Below are positions 3,201 to 25,939 of a stretch of DNA of 40,308 nt, one piece after another. Below the pieces are notes generated by a model that was given only the letters and a program-made list of their open reading frames with translations, did not search any database and had not been told where the DNA came from. A program made the translations under genes and the position numbers. Source of the DNA: an uncultured Chitinophagaceae bacterium (GTDB taxonomy: Bacteria; Bacteroidota; Bacteroidia; Chitinophagales; Chitinophagaceae); NCBI GenBank assembly GCA_903884185.1, contig CAISDV010000186.1, positions 1 through 40,308 on the forward strand. Direction: 5' to 3'. How positions within the stretch are numbered: the first letter of the stretch is position 1; the number at the start of each line of letters is the position of its first letter.

Positions 3201-4303
3201 TGATGAAAAAGACAGTTTTATTTGTTTGCCTGCTTGCCTCTTTTGCAGCCAATGCACAAAGGGAAAAAGCAACTGCCTATATCAATAACTATAAAGACAT
3301 TGCCATGAGCGAGATGGTGCGCTCTGGTGTGCCTGCTGCTATTACTCTTGCGCAGGGTATCCTCGAATCCAAATATGGCGAAAGCAATTTGTGCAAAGAA
3401 TCCAATAATCATTTTGGAATCAAGTGCAAACCTGAATGGACAGGCGAGAGAGTTTATCATGATGACGATGCCAAACACGAATGTTTCCGCAGTTATGCTA
3501 CCGCTGAAGAATCTTTTCGTGACCATTCAGATTTTTTAAAGAACAGGCCTTACTATACAGATCTCTTCCTGCTTGATCCTGCAGATTATGAAGGTTGGGC
3601 AAAAGGATTAAAGAAAGCAGGCTATGCTACTGAAAAAGATTATCCTCAAAGATTGATAGAACTGATTGAAACATACGATCTCAATAAATATTCTTTACTC
3701 GCACTTCAGCAGGGTAAACCTGCAGAATCAAAGATAGTAGCTGTTGCAGATAAGGAAGAAAAGATTGTCATCACTCCTGCAATAAAAGCTGAAGTCCTGC
3801 AACCCGCAGAAGAAACTAAAGAAGATAAAAAAGAAGTGGAAACACCCGTTGCTCCTCAGCCTGCAAAAGAAATAGAAGCACCCAAAGAAGAGAAAAGTAT
3901 TTACCCAGAAGGTGTTTTTACCATCAATCATTCCAAAGTGATCTATGCGAAAAAAGGTGTCTCCCTTCTTTCTCTCGCAGGACAATACAATATTACTCTC
4001 AGCAAATTGTTTGATTTCAATGATATGACTGAAACAGATATCCTTGGAGCCAGCAAGCTCATGTTCATTGAAAGGAAATTAAAGAAAGGCGCTTCCGACT
4101 TTCATGTTGTTGCCACCGGTGAAACTCTCTATGATATCAGCCAGCAGGAAGGTGTTCGCCTCGAAAACATATTAGCCTATAACGGTTTACAAAAGACCGC
4201 CACCCCTACCCTTGGGCAAAAAATTTACCTGCGTGTACCAGCTCCGGTTATTTCTAAATCTGTGCCTGTTTCCGCAAATAAATCCGTTACTTCGTCAAGG
4301 TAA
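3197..4303 (+). CDS. Exported glucosaminidase-domain protein with C-terminal LysM-like repeats
   Basis: A 368-residue peptidoglycan hydrolase. Residues 1-20 are a signal peptide (hydrophobic core, then FAANA-Q). The glucosaminidase domain (PF01832 type) covers about 25-165; the likely catalytic Glu57 sits in QGILESKYGES, followed by NNHFGIKC. Residues about 175-245 form a Lys/Glu/Pro-rich linker. Two LysM-like repeats follow at about 250-300 and 303-350, the second with the classic GETLYDIS and ILAYNGL pattern, giving binding to the glycan backbone. It should cleave beta-1,4 bonds next to GlcNAc in the periplasm. The ATGA overlap with the methyltransferase gene marks coupling. Confidence 0.92.
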   Translation: MMMKKTVLFVCLLASFAANAQREKATAYINNYKDIAMSEMVRSGVPAAITLAQGILESKYGESNLCKESNNHFGIKCKPEWTGERVYHDDDAKHECFRSYATAEESFRDHSDFLKNRPYYTDLFLLDPADYEGWAKGLKKAGYATEKDYPQRLIELIETYDLNKYSLLALQQGKPAESKIVAVADKEEKIVITPAIKAEVLQPAEETKEDKKEVETPVAPQPAKEIEAPKEEKSIYPEGVFTINHSKVIYAKKGVSLLSLAGQYNITLSKLFDFNDMTETDILGASKLMFIERKLKKGASDFHVVATGETLYDISQQEGVRLENILAYNGLQKTATPTLGQKIYLRVPAPVISKSVPVSANKSVTSSR

Positions 4304-4334
4304 CCATCAGGTAAATCTCATAAATATCTCTCCC

Positions 4335-4874
4335 ATGAATGTGATAAAGGTCCACGACAAAACTTTTGTGCCATACATTTCCGAAGCCACCATTTTAAAT
4401 AAAATAAAAGACCTTGCCGCGCAGCTGAATAAAGATTATGAGGGCAAACAACCCATCTTTATTTCCATACTCAATGGTTCGTTTATTTTTTCTGCCGATC
4501 TTTTTAAAGAATTGACCATTGAGGCCGAGATATGTTTTATTAAGCTCGCTTCTTATAAAGGAACACAGTCAACCGGGCATGTGATCACTTCTATTGGGCT
4601 CGATGCCAATATCACAGGAAGGCATGTGATCATTTTGGAAGATATCATTGACACCGGAAGAACGATGCACAACTTCCTGCCGCAGATCACCAACCAGCAA
4701 CCCGCTTCTTTAAAGATCGCTGTGCTGCTTCATAAGCCCGAAGCCATGGAATTTCCCATCAACATAGACTATTGCTGTTTTTCCATCCCCAACAAATTTG
4801 TATTGGGCTATGGCCTTGATTATGATGGTTTTGGAAGGAATATCCGCGAGATCTACCAGCTTCATAACGATTAG
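4335..4874 (+). CDS. hpt: Hypoxanthine phosphoribosyltransferase
   Basis: A purine-salvage enzyme that makes IMP (and usually GMP) from the free base and PRPP. The type I PRTase PRPP loop is clear: LEDIIDTGRT at residues 101-110, preceded by the flexible loop with the SYKG segment (73-76) and the early ILNGS loop. At 179 residues from the ATG at 4335 the length matches the family. An open frame continues upstream to 4212, but that part overlaps the glucosaminidase gene in another frame and does not resemble the family, so the internal ATG is chosen. It lies 31 bases after the glucosaminidase stop and may be read from the same transcript. Confidence 0.93.
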   Translation: MNVIKVHDKTFVPYISEATILNKIKDLAAQLNKDYEGKQPIFISILNGSFIFSADLFKELTIEAEICFIKLASYKGTQSTGHVITSIGLDANITGRHVIILEDIIDTGRTMHNFLPQITNQQPASLKIAVLLHKPEAMEFPINIDYCCFSIPNKFVLGYGLDYDGFGRNIREIYQLHND

Positions 4875-4926
4875 CACTTACGTGTTATACTATTGACATT
4901 TAGTTCAGATGATTTTATAGTTTTTC

Positions 4927-5043
4927 ACCGCAGAGACGGAGAGAAACGCAGAGAGAGTTACTATTTCCATTGACATTGAGTTTCTAACTCTGCGAACCTC
5001 CAAGCCTGCCCCGCTAAATGCGGGGTCTCCCTGTCTCTCCGGT
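4927..5043. repeat. Imperfect inverted-repeat element (CGCAGAG type) with nested hairpin
   Basis: The left end (4927-4944) and right end (5026-5043) are inverted copies with about 3 mismatches in 18 bases; inner arms 4947-4960 and 4985-4994 also pair, apart from a short extra AGAG run. Inside the right half sits a perfect 6-bp hairpin with a 5-base loop (ccccgc-taaat-gcgggg, 5009-5025). Arms built from repeated CGCAGAG/GAGA words look like a dispersed intergenic element seen in many environmental bacterial genomes (recollection, not tested). It fills most of the gap between hpt and the vWA gene. Confidence 0.7.
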
Positions 5044-11043: not shown

Positions 11044-12048
11044 GTGAAATTCTTCTTTCTTGCCGCTTCGGGGGCCATGCTAAGCCTGTCTGTTATTGCA
11101 CAGGAACAACCTGCCAGTCGTGCCATTACTACAGATGAATATGAGAAGGCCAAAACATTTTCTGTAAAGGACCTCGACAAGGATACTTATGTAAAGTTTG
11201 AGAATACTTATGTGCTCGACAGGTATGAATCGCGCAAACCTTATTTTATTACGGGCGATGATGGCATGAAGAAAAGAGTGGACATGTATAAGCTGATCCT
11301 GAAAGATGGTATGCAGGAACTGGGCACCATGATCTATTACACCAATGAAAAAGGAAAACTTTATAAAGTATGCCTTCCTGGTTTTAAAGCAGATAGCAAA
11401 ATATGGGAGAAATATTTTACTGATATCCATGCCATAGATAAGGAAGAACCCAATTTTGTTTTGAAGCTTTCTTATATCCTATCCAAAGAATTTGGATTTC
11501 AATTATACAAGGCATCCACTGGGGGAAAAGATATCAGCAAGGAAGCAGGTACTTATGGAACTGATATTTGTTTCCCGGGCAATATGAAAGTATCCATGGC
11601 AGATGGTTCTACAAAAATGCTGAGCAAGATACAGGCAGGAGAAAAAGTGATCACTGTTGATGCTGTTACTCATACCGCCAAAGAAACGATTGTAAAAGAA
11701 TTGTCGGTACACGAAGCAAAGAATTATGCGCTCACAAATATTTTGCTTTTATCAGCTACTGAAAAAAGATCAGCTACTGGCACAGATGTGCAGTTGAGAA
11801 CAAAAGAGTTGAGTGTTACACCCAATCATCCCCTACTCACCACAACAGGTGAAAAGCATGCCGGTGAAGTAAAAGAAGGCGATAAAGTTCTTTGCAAAGA
11901 TGCGCAGGGAACGGCGTATAAAGAATATACCGTGTTTTATGTAAATGAGAAAGCAGGCGGTTTACAGAAAGTATATAATATCGTAGCCGAAAGCGGTGAT
12001 ACTTTTATTATGAATGATGTGATGGTGATGCAGAAGGGGAAGAATTGA
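11044..12048 (+). CDS. Exported protein with C-terminal Hint (hedgehog/intein) domain
   Basis: 334 residues from a GTG start at 11044, chosen because it begins a clean signal peptide (FFFLAASGAMLSLSVIAQ). Residues about 21-170 form a conserved-looking but unrecognised N-terminal domain. The Hint domain begins at Cys176 (CFPGNMKVSMADGSTKM, block A), continues with the TPNHPL block B (T259, H262), and ends with block F-like VYNIVAESGDTFIMNDVMV (310-328). The usual terminal His-Asn is replaced by Met-Gln, so intein-type Asn cyclisation is not expected; N-S acyl shift and cleavage at Cys176, as in hedgehog proteins, remains possible. It is third in the run after the Tat oxidase and aminotransferase. 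Confidence 0.85.
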   Translation: MKFFFLAASGAMLSLSVIAQEQPASRAITTDEYEKAKTFSVKDLDKDTYVKFENTYVLDRYESRKPYFITGDDGMKKRVDMYKLILKDGMQELGTMIYYTNEKGKLYKVCLPGFKADSKIWEKYFTDIHAIDKEEPNFVLKLSYILSKEFGFQLYKASTGGKDISKEAGTYGTDICFPGNMKVSMADGSTKMLSKIQAGEKVITVDAVTHTAKETIVKELSVHEAKNYALTNILLLSATEKRSATGTDVQLRTKELSVTPNHPLLTTTGEKHAGEVKEGDKVLCKDAQGTAYKEYTVFYVNEKAGGLQKVYNIVAESGDTFIMNDVMVMQKGKN

Positions 12049-12087: not shown

Positions 12088-12115
12088 AAATAGCACTCTT
12101 TCAGCGAGGCTATTT
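12088..12115 (-). terminator. Probable Rho-independent terminator of the CofD-like cassette
   Basis: Read on the minus strand, AAATAGC and GCTATTT form a 7-bp stem, with an inner CTC/GAG pairing, followed by TTAATTG after the stem. It sits exactly at the end of the nucleotidyltransferase gene, and the stop codon of that gene (12110-12112) lies within the stem. The T-run is short, so strength is uncertain. Confidence 0.55.
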
Positions 12116-12844
12116 GCCGATTGCATCTTCAATCGCTTTTAATTCTTCAGGTGTGTTAAAACTCATACAATCAGATGGCAGTGCTATCGGGTAGCCTTCT
12201 ACTTTTTCTCCTTGAATGCACAACTTTTCAATTGCGTATAAGAAGCCATGTTCGCCAAGGAGACCCGTACAATATTTGAGAGAATCTTTTTTCAGTATTT
12301 CAAACAACGGCTTCTTCCTAAATACAAACAGTCCGATGTCCCTTTCTCCATACTTTGCTGGCTGAATACCCAATGCTCTTGTTTCTTTAACCCTGGTTAT
12401 TTTTCCATTTTTGCGTTCTACAATAGTATAACAGTTATTCCCAATGCTTGTGGCAAATGAAAAATTGTTCTTATCTGATTGATGAAAATTTACCAGGCTA
12501 TCCAGTGTTTTTTCACTTAACATAGGAATATCTGACCATATCAAAAGAATGTCCCCGGCATCATCAATTTTTCTATCGGCATACAAAACAGCATCACCCA
12601 TCCCCTTGGGTTCTTCCTGGAATACAAACTCTGCCCTCATTTCAAATTCATCCATGACAGCCTGGAATTGTTCTCTAAAAGCAGGGTTTACAATAATGAT
12701 AGGATTATTGTCGTATTTCTCAACCAATTTACAAATTCTTATTAAAATAGGGACACCCCCAATTCTATACAATGTTTTGGGGTAATTGAGGCCGCTGCGT
12801 GAACTTCGTCCACCCGCCGGTATCAAAACACGGAGACTTCTCAT
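12110..12844 (-). CDS. NTP transferase domain protein (GlmU/RmlA-like sugar-phosphate nucleotidyltransferase)
   Basis: 244 residues, a single nucleotidyltransferase domain without the acyltransferase half of GlmU. The nucleotide loop LIPAGGRSSRSGLNYPKTLY (7-26) fits the L-x-x-G-G-x-(G/S)-S-R pattern with the conserved Lys in PKTL. A later WSDIPML segment carries the metal-binding Asp, and EEPKGMGDAV resembles the base-recognition region of GlmU. It should form an NDP-activated compound from NTP and a phosphorylated substrate, most likely a sugar phosphate. The start directly abuts the stop of the glycosyltransferase gene (zero bases between), and it is the last of four tightly packed minus-strand genes. 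A CofC-like role (activating a phospho-acid) is a less likely alternative. Confidence 0.85.
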   Translation of the reverse strand: MRSLRVLIPAGGRSSRSGLNYPKTLYRIGGVPILIRICKLVEKYDNNPIIIVNPAFREQFQAVMDEFEMRAEFVFQEEPKGMGDAVLYADRKIDDAGDILLIWSDIPMLSEKTLDSLVNFHQSDKNNFSFATSIGNNCYTIVERKNGKITRVKETRALGIQPAKYGERDIGLFVFRKKPLFEILKKDSLKYCTGLLGEHGFLYAIEKLCIQGEKVEGYPIALPSDCMSFNTPEELKAIEDAIGK

Positions 12845-13738
12845 TTAAAATCTTTTAATAAAATTACCTTTTATTCCATCCCTGATTCCGTAATAAAAAT
12901 ATTTTGTATTAGCGCCAAATACATAGGTTAACGAATTCAAAAACCCATTTCTTTTTAATATCCTCCACCAAGTGACGAATACTGTAAAAAAATTTCTCGC
13001 AATCACAAGATCAAAATATTTTCTATTAATAATAATTGAATTTCTGATAAAATAATATACTCTCATTTTATCGATTACCCTTTGATTAACATCGGGGTGA
13101 TAATGTAATGCACTCAATAAGGAAAAGACATTCCCAACCTTCCTTAACCGGCAATAATAATCAACTTCATCCCCATATATAAAATAATCCCTGTCTACAT
13201 TATCGATCTGTGCTGCATATTCGAGATTAATAAGCGCCCCATTAAAAAGATGAACAAAAGGATATGTTTCTACCCCTGCTGGCAATTCACTGAACGTATA
13301 ATATTTTCTTTTCAAAGAAAACACAACAGGATTGCCTTTCCGGTTCAACAAGGACATTCCAAATACAAATTCATCATGTTTTTTTTCCTTTACAACAACA
13401 GAAGAAATACAAGCAGTATGTTCATCTGTATTCTCAAGTAATAGTTCCAGGGCTCTATGGTGAGGGTATCCATCATCATCCATCAGCCAAACAAAAGAAT
13501 AGCCTTTGCTTATTCCTTCAGAAATACCTCTTGCCCAGCCAGCAGATGATCCCTCGTTGGACTGCGTAATGTGCCCAATATTATTTTCACTAAGAAATTT
13601 TTCTGTTCCATCTGTTGACTCATTATTGATAATAAGAATATCAGGTAAAGTAGATTGTTTTTGCAAATAATAGATGCACCGCTTTAGCAGGTTGAGCCTG
13701 TTATGTGTAACTATAACTGCTAATACTTTATCAGGCAT
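12845..13738 (-). CDS. Family 2 glycosyltransferase (GT2, galactofuranosyl/rhamnosyl-transferase-like)
   Basis: 297 residues from the ATG at 13738. The GT-A fold is evident: VLAVIVTHNRLNLLKRC near the N-terminus, IINNESTDGT for the nucleotide-sugar site, LMDDDGYP as the metal-binding DxD equivalent, and GDEVDYYCRLR with the likely catalytic acid. An open frame extends 26 codons further upstream, but that part overlaps the HAD gene and is not family-like. With the chosen start, the gene overlaps the HAD stop by 8 bases. It has no membrane helices except a weakly hydrophobic region near residues 255-270. It should transfer a sugar to a lipid-linked or surface glycan acceptor. The coding sequence is strongly A/T-rich. 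Confidence 0.88.
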   Translation of the reverse strand: MPDKVLAVIVTHNRLNLLKRCIYYLQKQSTLPDILIINNESTDGTEKFLSENNIGHITQSNEGSSAGWARGISEGISKGYSFVWLMDDDGYPHHRALELLLENTDEHTACISSVVVKEKKHDEFVFGMSLLNRKGNPVVFSLKRKYYTFSELPAGVETYPFVHLFNGALINLEYAAQIDNVDRDYFIYGDEVDYYCRLRKVGNVFSLLSALHYHPDVNQRVIDKMRVYYFIRNSIIINRKYFDLVIARNFFTVFVTWWRILKRNGFLNSLTYVFGANTKYFYYGIRDGIKGNFIKRF

Positions 13739-14453
13739 GCGGCAACCGGGATTGTAATTGATTTGACAATGATTTAAAATCAGCGAACCAAACATGTTTA
13801 TCCGCGACCCTGGCAATCTTTAATTCATTATTTATGCAGACAACATCCAGCCCGGCGGCGATAGCAGCTTGTATACCCGATTCGGCATCTTCGATAACAA
13901 GTACACTCGCAGGATCCATTTTCTTTGAATCCAGTATCTTTTGAAAGACTTCAGGGTGCGGCTTCGAACAAGAAATATCATCGGCAGTAACGATCATCTC
14001 AAAGTATTTGTCAATGCCTAGTTTATGCAACCCGGTAGTTACATTTAATCGTGACCCAGAACTTCCAATGAAAAGTCGAAACCTGTTCACGTGTAAAAGT
14101 TCAATAAACGCTAAAGCACCAGGAATAAATTGCAAGGCATTTTTATACAATTCATTTGCCAAGGTACGTTTCTCCTTTGTCAGCCGCTTTAATTCCGCTT
14201 CGTCAATTGCATATCTATTAGAAATAAAAATTGCGCGCATAGCGTCTTCCGTAGACATTCCGAGGTGATCTTTATATTCAAACTTTACACTATGTATGGC
14301 CAGGGCTTTTTTAAAAGCATTTTCATGTAAATGAAGGCTATCAGCAATAGTACCGTCAAAATCAAAAATAATCGATTTTTTCTTTTTAAATAAATTCTCC
14401 AATTTCTGGCGCCTTTTAGATAACTGTAGATATGGTATATTTTTCAGATCCAC
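13731..14453 (-). CDS. HAD-superfamily hydrolase (beta-phosphoglucomutase / phosphoglycolate phosphatase-like)
   Basis: 240 residues from a GTG start at 14453, the only suitable start in the frame. A basic leader of about 28 residues precedes motif I FDFDGTIADS, where the first Asp is the phosphorylated nucleophile. Motif II is FIGSSGS, the motif III Lys lies in CSKPHPEVF, and motif IV is VIEDAESGIQAA. The helical cap between motifs I and II makes it a subfamily I enzyme, acting on small phosphate esters such as sugar phosphates. It lies 6 bases after the CofD-like gene and overlaps the glycosyltransferase start, so it is within one transcript. It could dephosphorylate or isomerise the sugar phosphate used by the cassette. 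Confidence 0.88.
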   Translation of the reverse strand: MDLKNIPYLQLSKRRQKLENLFKKKKSIIFDFDGTIADSLHLHENAFKKALAIHSVKFEYKDHLGMSTEDAMRAIFISNRYAIDEAELKRLTKEKRTLANELYKNALQFIPGALAFIELLHVNRFRLFIGSSGSRLNVTTGLHKLGIDKYFEMIVTADDISCSKPHPEVFQKILDSKKMDPASVLVIEDAESGIQAAIAAGLDVVCINNELKIARVADKHVWFADFKSLSNQLQSRLPHA

Positions 14454-14459
14454 TTAAAT

Positions 14460-15683
14460 TTACTTTTCAAGCTTGGATGTAGCGGCCTGATACAAATTGA
14501 TAATAAGTTTAGAAAGAAGAGTGGCATCATGCTTCCCGGGGTTTTGTAAATCCTCAAAACCGTCAATTATTATTTTACAGCCGATTTTGTTTAGTTGATT
14601 CAAATCAAATCTTATATAATTTTCGAGTTTATCATCTGAAAACCTGTTATTGACCAAGGCAACCGTAATCAAGTCCTCAACTGCAATATTGGAAGTGGTT
14701 CCCATTCTTAAATATTTGACGGCACCATTAATAAGATCATTTGCAGAGTAACTGGGTGTTTCATAATCTTCTCCTATATTGGCAATGAATACTTTTAATG
14801 CTTTTTTATTTGCTACAATAGAATCAGTTAGCCCTTTGGTCATATAACTTAGATACAATGATGAGTGCTGGGTACCGGCAGAATAAATGATAATATCGGC
14901 ATCACTAATACTCCTGGCAACTCTCGGCGTTATTGAAACCTGCCGGTTCATTATTTCAAAATATTCTTCTACTTTCTCTACTGCCATTGTTGATAAAATA
15001 TTTTTATCAGGATACTGATCTAGTAAATAGATCTTTTTAATTCGTGAATTGGACCTTAGTTCCACTATCTCGGCCTCGGAATATAATATGGTGCCATCTT
15101 CTCTTATTGCCACTAATTTTTTATCCTCATTATTAGTTGGCAAAACGGTACCACGAAGCTTGAACAGTTTATCAATAAAAATAGTTGCCTCTTCAAAATT
15201 TCCACCAAAAACCAGGTATGCTCCTGCATAGATCAGGTTCATCAGGGCGCAATCAGAGAAATTTATTTTCTTATTTTCAGATTTTTCGATAAGTTCAATA
15301 CCCTTTAATAACCTGCCTACGCATGTCTTAAGTGCTTCTTCTATAGTTGCGTCTTTAAAAGAAATTCCTTCTATCTCACCACAACTAGCAAAGTCCCTCA
15401 TCTTTCTTAAGACAATTTCATGATCAGCATCAACCGGGAATCTAAAATCAAAAACCCTGCAAACTGATTCATAATCCAGCAAGTCCTTTGGTAGCATAGC
15501 TTCCTGTACTTTCCTAATATCAGACGGGCCTAACATTTTAAAAAAATCTCTTATTTCACCTGTTGACTTTCCGTCATCATATGCGTTGAGGATACAAGTC
15601 AGGTTAACCCCATCAATATCCAGAAGAACCGGGATTAGATTTTTTGCACCCCTGCCTCCATTAAATGAAACGATATTTACCAT
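14460..15683 (-). CDS. CofD/YvcK-like protein (2-phospho-L-lactate transferase family), divergent
   Basis: 407 residues. The N-terminal nucleotide-binding region reads VSFNGGRGAKNL (about 5-16), then AYDDGKSTGEIRDF and LGPSDIRK, matching the GGGTG, DDGGSTG and PPGDIR signatures of CofD and YvcK with several substitutions. A later IIYSAGTQHSSLYLSYMTKG segment matches the GPGSLYTS region of the family. CofD transfers a phospho-acid moiety to the F420 precursor; YvcK binds UDP-sugars and controls carbon and envelope metabolism. Neither role is assured because no other F420 genes are present and the gene heads a glycan-type cassette (HAD, GT2, NTP transferase). Its coding sequence is A/T-rich. 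Confidence 0.8.
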   Translation of the reverse strand: MVNIVSFNGGRGAKNLIPVLLDIDGVNLTCILNAYDDGKSTGEIRDFFKMLGPSDIRKVQEAMLPKDLLDYESVCRVFDFRFPVDADHEIVLRKMRDFASCGEIEGISFKDATIEEALKTCVGRLLKGIELIEKSENKKINFSDCALMNLIYAGAYLVFGGNFEEATIFIDKLFKLRGTVLPTNNEDKKLVAIREDGTILYSEAEIVELRSNSRIKKIYLLDQYPDKNILSTMAVEKVEEYFEIMNRQVSITPRVARSISDADIIIYSAGTQHSSLYLSYMTKGLTDSIVANKKALKVFIANIGEDYETPSYSANDLINGAVKYLRMGTTSNIAVEDLITVALVNNRFSDDKLENYIRFDLNQLNKIGCKIIIDGFEDLQNPGKHDATLLSKLIINLYQAATSKLEK

Positions 15684-15839: not shown

Positions 15840-15869
15840 TAAAAAAGCCCCACTGAAAAGCCAGGGCTT
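15840..15869 (-). terminator. Rho-independent terminator after dnaJ
   Basis: On the minus strand AAGCCC (15869-15864) and GGGCTT (15850-15845) form a stem around a 13-base loop, followed by a T-run and TATTT. It starts a few bases after the dnaJ stop codon, so it ends the grpE-dnaJ transcript. Confidence 0.75.
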
Positions 15870-15875
15870 ACTATT

Positions 15876-20670: not shown

Positions 20671-21607
20671 ATTGAATGAATTTTGTATAAGCCCGCTCAC
20701 CCCAGTAGGTATAATTTTTATTTTCGAGTGCTGTGCCAATCAATACTGAATGAATAAACCCATTTCTTTCTACCTGTACCGTATGGAATATTTTTTTTTC
20801 CGGATTATCAACAAAAAAGAAATTGACCTGGTTTTTGCTTGAGGAGAATTGCTGCACACTGTCCTGCCTGTTGATATGAAAAGGAAAATATGCCGACAGG
20901 TCTTTCATCATCAGGTGGCTTCGGTACCAGGTTCCACCAGTAGGCGTCACGAGCGGTTTGCCATTATAGATCACTACACTGTCGTTGTATGCAAATACTG
21001 TTAAATGATGTGATGGGAATGCTTTGATCCAATCAGTAAATTTTTGGGTGAAGCTGGAATCATATCCATAATCGCTGTCAAGGAAACTGATGCGTTCTAC
21101 TTTTGAAGGTATCTGTTCTTTTGACTGGATATATCCTAATACAAAAGAACCTCCACCACTATGTCCATTCAGGTGGAGCCAATATTTTTTTAGAGAAAGT
21201 ACTTGTGAGATGGTGTCAACGATCTTAGGTATCAGGTCTGTATAATCAGGATGGGTCTTTTTCCATTGTGGCCATGCTTTCAGGTCATTCTCCAGGTAAA
21301 CCACAATAATATTTTCATCAGAGCTGCTGTTTCTCACAAATGCCGCCTGTGCTGCTATATGCTGTATATCAAAATGCCAGTCATCTCCTTCTTTTAATAT
21401 TTTCCCCATCGTTTGGGCAGTTGTATTCCCATTGGGTAATGCGAATAGAATGAGTTGGGTATTTTTTTTTGAAGAGAAATCTTTCGGATAGCTAACAGTA
21501 AGCGTAACATCATTTCTGAAACGGAAACTGAATACAGAATCCCGTGAAGCGAATGAATGCTGCGCTATAAGTGATACAACAAATAATATTGGTAAAACTT
21601 TTCTCAT
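20669..21607 (-). CDS. Exported alpha/beta-hydrolase-fold protein, function unknown
   Basis: 312 residues from the ATG at 21607; an upstream start would only add residues overlapping rmlD. Residues 1-20 are a signal peptide (VLPILFVVSLIAQHSFA). LNGHSGGGSFVLGYI has the G-x-S-x-G nucleophile elbow of alpha/beta hydrolases, with LDSDYGYD later as a possible acid site and a His in the C-terminal FIHSVLIG. It may be a periplasmic esterase. It overlaps the rmlD stop by one base (TAATG), so it is the last gene of the nucleotide-sugar operon and might remove or add acyl groups on its glycan; that is inference. Confidence 0.75.
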   Translation of the reverse strand: MRKVLPILFVVSLIAQHSFASRDSVFSFRFRNDVTLTVSYPKDFSSKKNTQLILFALPNGNTTAQTMGKILKEGDDWHFDIQHIAAQAAFVRNSSSDENIIVVYLENDLKAWPQWKKTHPDYTDLIPKIVDTISQVLSLKKYWLHLNGHSGGGSFVLGYIQSKEQIPSKVERISFLDSDYGYDSSFTQKFTDWIKAFPSHHLTVFAYNDSVVIYNGKPLVTPTGGTWYRSHLMMKDLSAYFPFHINRQDSVQQFSSSKNQVNFFFVDNPEKKIFHTVQVERNGFIHSVLIGTALENKNYTYWGERAYTKFIQ

Positions 21608-22488
21608 TACTGCGAAGCTGTTATTTTTTGCAGGCAATCTTTTAAACTAAGTTTCCAGTCTCTCAGCTCTATACCAAAATCACCAACAATTTTTTGTTTA
21701 TCCAGTACAGAATAGTGTGGACGTTTGGCAGGTGTGGGATAGGCTATGGTTGGAACGGGCATTAGCCGACAATTCAATCCTGCCATTGACTTAATGGCAA
21801 CTGCAAAGTCGTACCAGGAAATAATTCCATCATTACTGAAATGATAGAGACCATATTTGGGGTTTGATCCAGATAGTTGGTTGATCATTTTCATAATAGC
21901 CTGTGCAAGGTCTGCTGCATAGGTAGGTGATCCTATTTGATCGTTCACAACGCTGATCTCTTCCTTTTCCTTCATCAGCCGTAACATCGTCTTTACAAAA
22001 TTATTTCCAAAGGGGCTATATATCCAGGAAGAGCGGATAATGACCGTTTCTTTGCAATTTTGTAAAGCGGCTATTTCACCTTGCTGTTTTGAGTAGCCAT
22101 AATAATTGATGGGATCAGTGGGATGATCTGTTGGATACGGCGCTTTCCCTTTTCCATCAAAAACATAATCAGTAGAGATCGTAATCAATTTACAATTCAC
22201 TAAAGAACATGCTTCTGCAATCGCGCCAACCGATTCTGCATTGATCGTATATGCCTGTGCTTTTTCTGATTCAGCTTTATCAACTGCAGTATAAGCAGCA
22301 CAGTTAATAAAATATTGTGGCTTGTGTTTTTGAATGAATGGGGGGATAGTTTCGGGTTTACTAAGATCGAGTTCTTCTTTGCCTGTGAATACAAAGTCAA
22401 AGTCGCCCGAAAATGAAGAGTGCAATTGCTCTAATTCCCGGCCAAGCTGGCCATTTTTTCCCGTAACAATGATCAATGGCCTTGCCAT
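21607..22488 (-). CDS. rfbD: dTDP-4-dehydrorhamnose reductase
   Basis: 293 residues, a short-chain dehydrogenase/reductase of the RmlD family. The NAD(P)-binding loop is VTGKNGQLGREL, followed by DYVFDGKGKAPY and YGYSKQQGE with the catalytic Tyr and Lys. Usually it makes dTDP-L-rhamnose from dTDP-4-dehydrorhamnose. The rfbA, rfbB and rfbC genes are not in the window, so the rest of that pathway must lie elsewhere, or this enzyme reduces another 4-keto sugar. It lies 19 bases after the decarboxylase gene in the surface-glycan operon. Confidence 0.92.
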   Translation of the reverse strand: MARPLIIVTGKNGQLGRELEQLHSSFSGDFDFVFTGKEELDLSKPETIPPFIQKHKPQYFINCAAYTAVDKAESEKAQAYTINAESVGAIAEACSLVNCKLITISTDYVFDGKGKAPYPTDHPTDPINYYGYSKQQGEIAALQNCKETVIIRSSWIYSPFGNNFVKTMLRLMKEKEEISVVNDQIGSPTYAADLAQAIMKMINQLSGSNPKYGLYHFSNDGIISWYDFAVAIKSMAGLNCRLMPVPTIAYPTPAKRPHYSVLDKQKIVGDFGIELRDWKLSLKDCLQKITASQ

Positions 22489-22507
22489 AAATGAATTTTA
22501 ACTGGTC

Positions 22508-23488
22508 TTATTTGCTTTTAAACTCTTTAGGCAATTTATAAAGTTCTTCCTTGGGCAATGACTTAAAATATTTGTATGTTTTTTTCAAGCCCTCAGCCCT
22601 GTCTACCAAAGGTTGCCAGCCCAGTATTTCCTTTGCTTTGGTGATATCAGGTTGTCTCTGTTTAGGGTCATCAGCCGGCAAAGGTTTATAAATTATTTTC
22701 ACATTAGATTCGGTCAATTTTAAAACTTCTTCGGCAAAATCTTTCAATGATATTTCATTGGGGTTCCCTATGTTCACAGGCAAATGATAATCACTCAGCA
22801 ACAAACGATAGATACCATCTATCAGATCATCTACATAACAAAAACTTCTTGTTTGGCTACCATCTCCAAAAACTGTAAGGTCCTCACCCCTCAATGCCTG
22901 TCCTATAAATGCAGGTAATGCCCTGCCATCGTTCAAACGCATACGCGGGCCATAGGTATTGAAAATGCGTACGATCCTGGTTTCTATATGATGAAAGCTG
23001 TGATAGGCCATGGTAATAGATTCCATGAATCTTTTGGCCTCATCATATACTCCACGCGGGCCAACAGGGTTCACATTCCCCCAGTATTCTTCTGTTTGAG
23101 GATGTACCAGTGGATCGCCATATACTTCACTTGTGGAAGCCACTAATATTCGCGCTCCTTTTTCTTTTGCCAATCCCATACAGTTATGTGTGCCTAGCGC
23201 TCCTACTTTTAATGTTTGTATGGGGATCTTTAAATAATCGATGGGGCTGGCGGGTGAAGCAAAATGGAGTATAAAATCAAGGTCACCATTAATATGTATG
23301 AACTTTGTTACATCATGGTGATAATATTCAAATTGTTCAAGAGGAAAAAGATGTTCTATATTTTTAATGTCGCCGGTGATGAGGTTATCCATTCCTATAA
23401 CACGATATCCTTCTGCAATAAATTTATCACATAGATGAGAGCCTAAAAATCCTGCGGCGCCAGTGATCAAGACCCTTTTTCTTTTCAT
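22508..23488 (-). CDS. UDP-glucuronate decarboxylase / UDP-xylose synthase-like epimerase-dehydratase
   Basis: 326 residues of extended SDR fold. The NAD loop is [14 protein letters not shown]; the [19 protein letters not shown] segment and the SEVYGDP / YDEAKRF catalytic stretch are characteristic of UXS enzymes, which convert UDP-glucuronate to UDP-xylose. [19 protein letters not shown] is the substrate-binding Arg region. It has no membrane anchor, as usual in bacteria. It lies 12 bases after the UDP-glucose dehydrogenase gene, whose product is its substrate, so the UDP-Glc to UDP-GlcA to UDP-Xyl route is complete in one operon. Confidence 0.9.
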
Positions 23489-23500
23489 AAATAAATGGGT

Positions 23501-24802
23501 TTATGGCCTGCCGATACTTTCGTAATGATATCCGAGATGCCTGAGTTGTTTTACTTCAAAAAGGTTGCGCCCATCAAAAATAATTTTATTCTTAAGTTTA
23601 TTACTGATCAGTTCAAAGTCGGGTGTCCGGAATTCGCTCCATTCTGTTGCGATGATCAGTGCATCAGCATTATGTAAAGCATCATATTGGCTTTCAGCAT
23701 AACTGATCTTATCTCCAATTGTTTTTTTTACATTAGACATAGCTTCAGGGTCATATGCCGAAATAGTAGCCCCGGCAGCAATTAATGCATCAATCAAATA
23801 CAAAGCGGGTGCTTCTCTTATATCATCTGTATTAGGCTTAAAAGCCAGTCCCCATAATGCAAAATGTTTGTCCTTCAGATTATTCTTGAAATAATCACTT
23901 ATTTTAGGAAGGAGGTGCAACTTTTGCTTTTGGTTCACCGAATCCACTGCTTTCAAAATCTGAAAGTCATAGCCAATTTCTTCAGATGACATCACTAAAG
24001 CCTGCACATCTTTTGGAAAGCAACTTCCGCCATAACCTATGCCAGGGAATAAGAATCTTTTCCCTATTCTTTCATCACTACCAATACCCCGGCGCACCAT
24101 ATCAACATCAGCGCCCATTCTTTCGCAGAGCTGGGCAATTTCATTCATGAATGAAATTTTTGTTGCCAGGAATGAATTAGCTGCATACTTTGTAAGCTCA
24201 GCACTTTTTTCATCCATATAAATAACCGGGTTGCCCTGCCTTACAAATGGGGAATATAAATCACCCATTACTTTTCTTGCACGCTCAGAGGATGTTCCGA
24301 TCACAACCCTGTCCGGCTTCATAAAATCATCCACAGCTACCCCCTCACGTAAAAATTCAGGGTTGCTTACAACGTCAAATTCTTTTTTATAATTTTTAGT
24401 GATCGCAAGGCGAACTTTTTCAGCTGTCCCCACAGGTACAGTACTTTTATCAACGATCACAGTATAATCCTTTAATATCTTTCCAAGGCTGTCAGCAACA
24501 CCCAGCACATAACGCAGGTCAGCATTCCCATCTTCTCCAGGTGGTGTTGGAAGGGCCAAGAAAATAATAGCTGCATCTTCCGTTCCTTCTGCTAAATCAG
24601 TTGTGAATCGCAAACGCCCCTCTTTCAGGTTACGCAAAAACAATTTTTCCAGGCCGGGCTCATAAATGGTAATGCCCCCATTAGATAATTTAGCTATTTT
24701 ATCAGCATCAATATCAATACAAGTGACATGGTTACCCGTTTCTGCAAAACATGTTCCTGTCACCAATCCAACATAACCTGTTCCAACAACTGCAATTCTC
24801 AT
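23501..24802 (-). CDS. ugd: UDP-glucose 6-dehydrogenase
   Basis: 433 residues, family-typical. The NAD-binding motif is VVGTGYVGLVTG at the N-terminus; the catalytic Cys is in GYGGSCFPKD, with the conserved Asn/Lys helix TKYAANSFLATKISFMNE ahead of it; the C-terminal domain carries WGLAFKPNTDDIREAPA. It oxidises UDP-glucose twice to UDP-glucuronate with two NAD+. It lies 6 bases after the DegT aminotransferase gene. Together with the downstream decarboxylase it supplies uronate and pentose donors for surface polysaccharide. Confidence 0.96.
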   Translation of the reverse strand: MRIAVVGTGYVGLVTGTCFAETGNHVTCIDIDADKIAKLSNGGITIYEPGLEKLFLRNLKEGRLRFTTDLAEGTEDAAIIFLALPTPPGEDGNADLRYVLGVADSLGKILKDYTVIVDKSTVPVGTAEKVRLAITKNYKKEFDVVSNPEFLREGVAVDDFMKPDRVVIGTSSERARKVMGDLYSPFVRQGNPVIYMDEKSAELTKYAANSFLATKISFMNEIAQLCERMGADVDMVRRGIGSDERIGKRFLFPGIGYGGSCFPKDVQALVMSSEEIGYDFQILKAVDSVNQKQKLHLLPKISDYFKNNLKDKHFALWGLAFKPNTDDIREAPALYLIDALIAAGATISAYDPEAMSNVKKTIGDKISYAESQYDALHNADALIIATEWSEFRTPDFELISNKLKNKIIFDGRNLFEVKQLRHLGYHYESIGRP

Positions 24803-24808
24803 GACTGA

Positions 24809-25939
24809 TTATTTACAATAATTTAATACTTCCGAGCTAATATAATTCAATTGTTCTTCATCCAGTTCGGTATGCATGGGTAATGAGATGACCCTTTCTG
24901 TAAGCCACTCAGTAACGGGCAGGTCATACCTCACTTCTCCAAAAGAAGCAAACATTTTTTGTTTGTGGCCGGGAACAGGATAATAGATCATAGAAGGGAT
25001 CTTCTTCTCAGCAAGATGCACATTCAACCCATCCCTGCTTATATCATTCAATACGATCGTGTATTGATGAAATACATGGTTTGTATATTTCCCGGAAGTT
25101 GGTGTCGTAATATGCTTATTGCCTGCAAATGCTTTGTTATAAAAAGCCGCTGCATTTTGTCTTGCAGCAAGATACGCATCAAGGTTTTTTAGCTTGACAT
25201 TTAGTATGGCCGCCTGTATAGAATCCAGGCGTGAGTTACAGCCCACCAAATCATGATAATATCTTTTACTCTGCCCATGATTGGCTATCATTTTCATTTT
25301 AGCCGCCAAAGCATCATCATTCGTGAAGATAGCTCCGCCATCTCCAAAAGCGCCTAAATTTTTACTTGGGTAAAAGGAAGTGCAACCAATATGCCCTATC
25401 GTTCCTCCTTTCTTTTTTGTACCATCTTTAAAAGTATAATCACAACCTATGGCTTGTGCATTGTCTTCAATTACCCATAGGCTATATTCTTTGGCGATCT
25501 GCATAATTTCTTCCATTGGTGCTGCCTGCCCATAAAGGTGTACAGGCACGATCGCTTTTGTTTTTGGTGTGATAGCTTTACGAACCGCTTCCGGGCTCAT
25601 ACAAAAAGTGTGCTTGTCCACATCCACAAAAACGGGTTTCAGCTTTAATAAAGCTACTACTTCTGTTGTAGCAATATATGTAAAGGAAGGTGTGATCACT
25701 TCATCGCCAGGCTGCAGGTCAAGCGCCATCATGGCTATTTGGAGCGCATCCGTTCCATTGGCACAGGGGATGGTATGGCCTGATCCCATATAAGTGTTCA
25801 ATGCCCCCGTAAACTCACTAACAGCTTTCCCGTTGATATAGGCGGCACTATCAAGGACCTCCTTAATGGCAGCATCCACTTCGTCTTTTATTTTGAGATA
25901 CTGGGTCTTAGTATCTACCATTTGTATGGGTCTCATCAT
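24809..25939 (-). CDS. DegT/DnrJ/EryC1/StrS aminotransferase (WbpE-like)
   Basis: 376 residues, PLP-dependent sugar aminotransferase. The PLP-phosphate region CANGTDALQIAMMAL, the aspartate contact IEDNAQAIG and the internal aldimine Lys in FYPSKNLGAFGDGGAI are all present. The overall run of motifs resembles WbpE, which aminates C3 of a UDP-keto-hexuronic acid. Here the preferred substrate could be a keto-sugar made by the neighbouring SDR enzymes, but this is not certain. It is the first gene of a five-gene minus-strand operon, divergent from kdtA. Two adjacent ATG codons (25939 and 25936) could serve as start. Confidence 0.92.
   Translation of the reverse strand: MMRPIQMVDTKTQYLKIKDEVDAAIKEVLDSAAYINGKAVSEFTGALNTYMGSGHTIPCANGTDALQIAMMALDLQPGDEVITPSFTYIATTEVVALLKLKPVFVDVDKHTFCMSPEAVRKAITPKTKAIVPVHLYGQAAPMEEIMQIAKEYSLWVIEDNAQAIGCDYTFKDGTKKKGGTIGHIGCTSFYPSKNLGAFGDGGAIFTNDDALAAKMKMIANHGQSKRYYHDLVGCNSRLDSIQAAILNVKLKNLDAYLAARQNAAAFYNKAFAGNKHITTPTSGKYTNHVFHQYTIVLNDISRDGLNVHLAEKKIPSMIYYPVPGHKQKMFASFGEVRYDLPVTEWLTERVISLPMHTELDEEQLNYISSEVLNYCK

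Follow-up and report, generated by a model that had tools for sequence, protein, structure and literature searches.

A four-gene cassette in a 40,308-nucleotide stretch of DNA from an uncultured Chitinophagaceae bacterium (contig CAISDV010000186.1; the whole stretch is called the window below) encodes a CofD-like protein, a HAD-family protein, a family 2 glycosyltransferase (GT2) and a nucleotidyltransferase (NTPT). It is somewhat probable that the CofD-like protein, the HAD and the NTPT, which is of the GlmU type, together make a nucleotide-activated unusual sugar, and that an exchangeable glycosyltransferase adds this sugar to a glycan in bacteria or to a modified cytosine in phages. The proposal is built on the co-occurrence of the genes, on gene fusions, on a predicted fold and on conserved residues.

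Gene fusions and gene order

Every activity of the cassette is joined to another by fusion somewhere, and this is the strongest evidence that the four serve a single pathway. A HAD domain forms the C-terminus in 57 of the 59 phage open reading frames (ORFs) that encode a CofD domain, contig repeats being counted (54 were found by motif search and three, with the motif DWDDT, by eye). The other two share one contig (L026, L059), in which HAD and NTPT instead form one fused protein, as read from the sequence. In all ten Pseudomonadota-type loci (L130-L139) the CofD-like protein ends in a GT2 domain; the CofD-GT2 profile was built from two of the ten, and Pfam confirmation was obtained on L130 and L133. 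The fusions together with the recurring gene order in other loci rule out chance neighbours and bear out the sequence-only reading, in which the four genes act together. That reading would have suffered if the CofD-like gene had always been apart from the other three, which did not occur.

Phage relatives beside DNA glycosyltransferases

Twenty-eight viral contigs were found with a profile of four, then eight, bacterial proteins. One of them has a copy in LR756500, an uncultured phage record (tblastn), 462 kb long and unannotated, which is also the only one of 50,697 named-phage records to match the CofD relatives, at an E limit of 1e-5 as well as of 0.01. An NTPT lies near the CofD relative in 26 of the 28 contigs. 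A relative of the T4-type beta-glucosyltransferase (BGT) is present in 20 of them (the family was assigned by Pfam and PHROGs on L008, L009 and L010), and a phage BGT relative matches 1bgt at 9.4e-62. Four further contigs (L013, L028, L032 and L035) carry a TET-associated glycosyltransferase (TAGT, PF20691; 2.8e-24 or better).

When a BGT profile was used for the reverse search, 39 loci were returned, of which 35 lie in module-bearing contigs (33 show CofD and NTPT; two show one of these and lie in contigs already known). As the sequences behind this profile were BGTs taken from module loci, the search is biased towards such loci. In the four BGT loci that lack the module, the BGTs are the most distant ones (28-29%) and immediately follow a gene of the thymidylate synthase (TS) family.

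TS-family genes occur in 16 of the 28 viral contigs. The phage TS-family proteins have Asp in 18/18 aligned rows where the ThyA of the window genome has Asn; these rows include repeats, L010, L011 and L027 being copies of one phage and L021 and L034 having the same protein. This change from Asn to Asp is one that we take to mark dCMP hydroxymethylases. PHROGs labels the genes as thymidylate synthase in the three cases scanned, and 5-hydroxy-dCMP synthase also belongs to the TS superfamily (available part of PMC13390438). In L028 a terminase and in L008 a clamp loader, both recognised with PHROGs, are consistent with phage genomes. Two proteins of L009 that were taken as virion parts had no match in PHROGs, so that the phage assignment of this contig rests on its BGT and its neighbours. 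One comparison of viral loci kept 26 of them and omitted the repeats L011, L025, L027 and L034.

Upstream of CofD-HAD in L031 and L036, in the usual place of BGT or TAGT, lie an SDR protein (Pfam on L031) and a glycosyltransferase-like protein with a WIDAN motif, which is possibly an unrecognised DNA glycosyltransferase. L014 has a DNA cytosine-5 methyltransferase-like protein (positions 3771-4982, by eye) near the module; its NTPT precedes CofD-HAD, and neither BGT nor TAGT was seen there.

The CofD-like protein

The CofD domain of the window protein scores 114.8 bits against a Pfam cut-off of 30, and its gene is the only PF01933 gene in the window genome. This genome gave no match to the F420 ligase family PF01996, for which three archaeal control genomes gave matches, and none to CofC (PF01983); the earlier statement that F420 genes are missing holds for these two families. 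The best NCBIfam match, aligned over the full length, is the GAK-system CofD-like model TIGR04357 (125.3 bits, below its cut-off of 340), and the YvcK/GlmR model TIGR01826 gives 105.6 bits, below its cut-off of 196.

An AlphaFold2 model of the protein (mean pLDDT 89.3) matches five YvcK-family structures with Z-scores of 22.5-34.4 (Foldseek was also run), the best being 2ppv (Z 34.4, 310 residues, 2.6 Å), and CofD/FbiA structures with Z-scores of 20.1-21.4. A private motif, NAYDDG..STG..R....LGPSDIRK (general form LGxSDxRK), spans residues 33-58. The first Asp of its pair (D36), the Asp of SDxRK and the Lys at position 58 are invariant in 57/57 cassette and phage proteins, whereas three GAK references and one YvcK reference have Asn, Ser or Gln at position 58. 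D37 is kept in 6/6 bacterial proteins and in 12/51 phage proteins, and is Asn in 34/51 of the latter. The predicted fold and the conserved Asp residues uphold the description of the protein as a divergent member of the CofD type. A nucleotide pocket, on which the sequence-only reading depended, was checked through this fold and these residues.

In a FastTree tree of 69 sequences (near-identical phage rows, L137-L139 and L141 being omitted), the window-type, Pseudomonadota-type and phage proteins are split from GAK and YvcK with a support of 0.88, and the bacterial cassette proteins (0.92) and the phage proteins (0.94) are sister groups. An earlier, thinner tree (61/69 sequences, near-identical phage rows omitted) gave the whole clade a support of 0.65 and put one protein of the SAR11 type among the phage proteins with a support of 1.0. 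The protein resembles YvcK/GlmR in its fold, in the Asp pair and in a tie to UDP-sugar metabolism; it differs in missing the model cut-off, in Lys 58 and in its place in glycan or DNA-glycosylation modules. From the GAK-system proteins it differs by the missed cut-off and the separate clade, and the two annotated GAK genes inspected have other neighbours. An ordinary YvcK or F420 gene is ruled out by the model cut-offs, the type of the NTPT, the neighbours and the missing F420 partner families; the fold itself is that of YvcK.

In the available parts of the literature YvcK/GlmR is given the role of a regulator as well as that of an enzyme, and B. subtilis YvcK binds UDP-sugars with a proposed action on GlmS. 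Given its YvcK fold, the CofD-like protein might likewise be a non-catalytic regulator or UDP-sugar sensor that controls the adjacent glycosylation genes. Such a role is very improbable, as the protein is fused to two kinds of enzyme (HAD and GT2), occurs in phages with DNA glycosyltransferases and has an invariant first Asp. Moreover, Listeria GlmR is itself reported as an enzyme, which makes UDP-GlcNAc and loses activity about 100-fold when D40, D41 and N198 are changed together (available part of PMC10128056). D36 and D37 correspond to D40 and D41, equated through the motif and not through an alignment of the Listeria sequence, N198 not being mapped. This correspondence speaks for another role, in which the CofD-like protein would make an NDP-sugar itself, as GlmR does, and the NTPT would activate a second sugar, destined for the same glycan. 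This is also quite improbable: phages keep both enzymes beside usually one recognised glycosyltransferase, and the second Asp is mostly Asn in the phage proteins.

The HAD, NTPT and GT2 proteins

All four cassette proteins exceed the Pfam cut-offs for their families, and in the NCBIfam rows shown for them every specific functional (equivalog) model stays below its cut-off. The best NCBIfam match of the window HAD is TIGR02009 (beta-phosphoglucomutase/YqaB family; 118 bits of 153 needed), and the general HAD-IA models are passed. A true beta-phosphoglucomutase is not claimed; the specific model TIGR01990 gives 102.7 bits, below its cut-off of 189.4. The model of the phage HAD domain (pLDDT 94.6) has phosphomannomutases as its top structural matches (6cfs, Z 18.6; Foldseek was also run), followed by Cof-type hydrolases (17.3), trehalose-phosphate phosphatases (16.9) and sucrose-phosphate phosphatases (14.8). 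The bacterial and phage types are thus both nearest to hexose-phosphate families. The GT2 gives 84.3 bits with the GlfT1 galactofuranosyltransferase model NF050113, below its cut-off of 330.

The NTPT is a single-domain protein that matches GlmU models at up to 2.7e-20; the curated GlmU model gives 72.3 bits, below its cut-off of 450. R18, K25, D105 and N227 of GlmU, which are presumably the catalytic and metal residues in the usual numbering, are retained in 6/6 bacterial and 45/45 phage NTPTs, and Trp occupies the position of GlmU Y103 in 51/51. The 45 phage rows omit near-identical rows and the L026/L059 fusion, and the bacterial proteins compared do not include the L130-type NTPTs.

Another explanation of the cassette is that the NTPT, being CofC-like, makes an NDP-activated phospho-compound and that the CofD-like enzyme moves the phospho-group to a sugar, as CofC and CofD do with FO, while the HAD prepares the substrate and the GT2 builds the glycan. 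The fold is common to CofD/FbiA, CofC and CofD act as a coupled pair (available part of PMC8764529), and the NTPT belongs to a MobA-like family with a weak CofC match. However, the NTPT is much nearer to GlmU than to CofC (the CofC model TIGR03552 gives 0.0026 and 17.4 bits, below its cut-off of 105), the structural matches of the CofD-like protein are better with YvcK (Z up to 34) than with CofD (21), and the usual phage partner is a relative of T4 beta-glucosyltransferase. This explanation is therefore unlikely. A phospho-acid or sugar-phosphate placed on a glycan, as suggested earlier from the DNA, is not established; the GlmU-like NTPT and the phage relatives of a UDP-glucose DNA glycosyltransferase favour synthesis of a sugar donor.

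Bacterial neighbourhoods and spread

The bacterial loci examined were 18: the window, L002, L003, L004, L088, L117 and L130-L141. A GT2 is present in all 18, either beside the CofD-like gene or fused to it, and in 8/8 Bacteroidota and SAR11-type loci a GT2 of the window kind adjoins CofD (with the HAD between them in Bacteroidota). An NTPT lies near the CofD-like gene in 15/18 loci; none was seen in the available stretches of L131, L138 and L139, and in the last two the CofD gene is at the contig end. A class IA HAD is near in 10/18.

The glycan-type setting proposed for the cassette applies to the other Bacteroidota and SAR11-type loci, which are rich in glycan genes, and not to the window cassette. 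By Pfam, L002 has a flippase-type protein near the cassette and L004 one of the EpsG type; other glycan genes were recognised by eye. A GT4 relative is upstream in L117, L004, L140, L088 and L002, and not in L003, L130 or the window. After the NTPT, on the opposite strand, three loci have a membrane-type protein of about 455 residues with no Pfam match (L002:14416-15777, L117:13092-14456 and L003:14538-15917; 27-48% identity), possibly a polymerase; no relative of it was found in the window. In L130 (Pfam) and in L132-L136 (by eye) the CofD-GT2 fusion is accompanied by a radical-SAM protein and by a methyltransferase whose N-terminus is Cys-rich, and the sugar there may be methylated or rearranged. 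Methyltransferases also adjoin the CofD gene in the phage contig L009 (1498-2322) and in the Bacteroidota loci L002 (11237-12112) and L003 (11263-12171).

PF01933 exceeds its cut-off in 1/296 genomes sampled from the phylum of the window genome, namely in the window's own. The CofD-like gene was found in 2/147 genomes of the window genome's family and in 1/395 of its phylum (the window's own counted in both), in 2/289 genomes of the class and 11/398 of the phylum of the SAR11-type carrier G530, and in 4/162 genomes of the order of G791 (G530 counted in these three). A contig scan of genomes gave two Bacteroidota metagenome-assembled genomes, L002 (69%) and L003 (65%), and L004 (42%), which lies in G530. 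Three of 72,556 plasmid records match the CofD relatives at 21-23% identity; two are annotated as GAK CofD-like and the third is unannotated.

The cassette in the window

The four genes and a nearby hairpin are listed in Table 1. The ORF list places the cassette on the minus strand at 12110-15683. The span and the intergenic gaps of 6, -8 and 0 given earlier are confirmed, the gap of -8 (an overlap of HAD and GT2) depending on ATG 13738 as the GT2 start; the mechanical ORF list has TTG at 13816.

Table 1. Features of the cassette region (positions in the window).
Feature	Position	Strand	Description
CofD-like protein, heads the cassette	14460..15683	-	407 aa; PF01933 5.5e-33
HAD class IA, phosphatase/phosphomutase-type	13731..14453	-	240 aa; DFDGT and EDAESG motifs; HAD_2 6.9e-34
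GT2 glycosyltransferase	12845..13738	-	about 297 aa counted from ATG 13738; DDDG motif; Glycos_transf_2 PF00535 1.1e-14
Sugar-type nucleotidyltransferase (NTPT), GlmU N-domain-like	12110..12844	-	244 aa; IWSD and SFNTPEEL signatures; NTP_transf_3 PF12804 8.3e-14
Hairpin and T-run between dnaJ and cassette, possible grpE-dnaJ terminator (weak)	15842..15870	-	read in the sequence

The hairpin has a folding energy of -12.2 kcal/mol (z -1.76; 11/200 shuffles equal it in folding) and was not listed by a terminator scan. A promoter and terminator scan of the cassette gave 19 and 3 sites, compared with 15.8 and 3.0 in shuffles, and thus no signal. The cassette is flanked by dnaJ on one side and by a Hint-domain gene on the other; the latter (11044-12048, plus strand; PF01079 2.7e-9) converges on the cassette and is not a member of it. 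Genes for NDP-sugars (RmlD-like, UDP-glucuronate decarboxylase-like, UDP-glucose dehydrogenase-like and DegT aminotransferase-like; translations, by eye) lie at 21607-25939 on the minus strand, 6-10 kb away. In L117 relatives of the decarboxylase and the dehydrogenase are close to the cassette.

The GC content of the whole genes is 35.9% for CofD, 38.3% for HAD, 33.4% for GT2 and 38.8% for NTPT, compared with 41.2 +/- 2.5% for the 35 other window genes. Only CofD and GT2 are beyond two standard deviations, and two other window genes are equally low (34.3 and 34.7%). The compositional difference from which transfer had been suggested is thus real but modest; the single lines counted by hand exaggerate it. 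Low GC is weak evidence of transfer, and horizontal movement is better supported by the patchy distribution of the cassette across phyla and phages. An empty site for insertion is not shown: dnaJ was found in 22/23 genomes of relatives, three dnaJ loci were read, and the order downstream of dnaJ is too little conserved.

The proposed pathway

By combining these data, it is possible to outline a pathway. The CofD-like enzyme may bind a nucleotide donor and modify a sugar phosphate by a transfer of the phospho or nucleotidyl type. The HAD would then remove or move a phosphate, leaving a sugar-1-phosphate, from which the GlmU-type NTPT would make an NDP-sugar, probably with UDP. The GT2 would finally attach this sugar to a glycan on the surface. 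In phages, CofD-HAD and NTPT would be retained and the GT2 would be replaced by a DNA glycosyltransferase acting on modified cytosine.

The order of the steps, UDP as the carrier and DNA as the phage target are what we infer. The fusions CofD-HAD and HAD-NTPT suggest the order CofD, HAD, NTPT and glycosyltransferase, and the relationships to GlmU and T4 BGT point to UDP. A sugar-phosphate intermediate is indicated by two unrelated HAD classes that are both nearest to hexose-phosphate enzymes. As the CofD-like protein, HAD and NTPT are kept while the GT2 changes to BGT or TAGT, the three appear to form a donor-synthesis module with an exchangeable transferase.

The NDP-heptose route uses an anomeric kinase, the HAD GmhB and the nucleotidyltransferase HddC. 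The cassette resembles it in a HAD followed by an NTPT acting on a sugar-1-phosphate; it differs in that a CofD-like protein replaces the kinase, and the comparison is one of analogy. By this analogy the first step might be the addition of an anomeric phosphate, which is the preferred guess and yet rather doubtful; the alternatives are a uridylyltransfer like that of GlmR or a diester transfer like that of CofD.

Several points weigh against such a pathway. If the CofD-like protein were a uridylyltransferase like GlmR, there would be no need for the NTPT. The HADs of bacteria and of phages differ in cap class, so that this step was recruited twice, and no HAD lies near the CofD gene in four SAR11-type loci (L004, L088, L140 and L141, the last a contig of 5 kb) or in L132; the genome of L004 has a weaker HAD relative away from the CofD locus (2.1e-23). 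Four of the 28 viral contigs (L014, L031, L036 and the truncated L037) have no recognised DNA glycosyltransferase. With a profile of bacterial NTPTs only, E. coli GlmU scores 60 bits and so falls among the phage NTPTs (16-77 bits); the NTPT link is therefore mainly at family level, and a specific kinship of the bacterial and phage NTPTs is only moderately supported. The window cassette itself lies outside any glycan cluster.

Relation to known systems and significance

Coenzyme F420 synthesis by CofD/FbiA and CofC is similar in fold and in the pairing with a nucleotidyltransferase; it differs in that the window genome matches neither the F420 ligase nor the CofC family, in the GlmU-like NTPT and in a Z-score of only about 21. 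The arabinosylation modules of phage RB69/Mosigvirus and the pentose modules of phage Thanatos also contain genes for sugar activation, next to a DNA glycosyltransferase and a TS-family enzyme that modifies dCMP (available parts of PMC6024577, PMC12838424 and PMC13390438); they differ in that an NTPT-phosphotransferase fusion, and a predicted isomerase, epimerase and kinase, are found there. A term search found the word CofD in none of these three papers, and neither CofD nor YvcK in PMC8670742. Thanatos TH1_063 makes UDP-xylose in vitro, and this UDP-pentose pyrophosphorylase has been linked to DNA modification (available part of PMC12838424); phage-borne donor synthesis as such is therefore not new. 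How the arabinose donor for phage DNA is made is called unclear in the available parts of PMC6024577 and PMC13390438. Among the papers listed by searches of the open-licence PMC literature, no title or abstract describes a CofD-family enzyme in glycan cassettes or in phage DNA-glycosylation modules.

For enzymes of the CofD type, the known settings are coenzyme F420 and the cell-wall protein YvcK/GlmR. It is tentatively proposed, at slightly less than even confidence, that a third functional branch of CofD/YvcK commits an undescribed nucleotide-sugar route, that its module has been traded between bacterial glycan loci and phages, large ones included, where it feeds relatives of BGT or TAGT, and that these phages carry a DNA base sugar not yet seen. 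The link to phages had no part in the sequence-only reading. A branch tied to sugar activation by three kinds of fusion offers a way to learn other roles of the CofD/YvcK fold. It also predicts that bacteria carry a new sugar on their surface glycans and phages a new glycosylated cytosine; the sugars on phage DNA influence whether a given restriction or CRISPR system is escaped.

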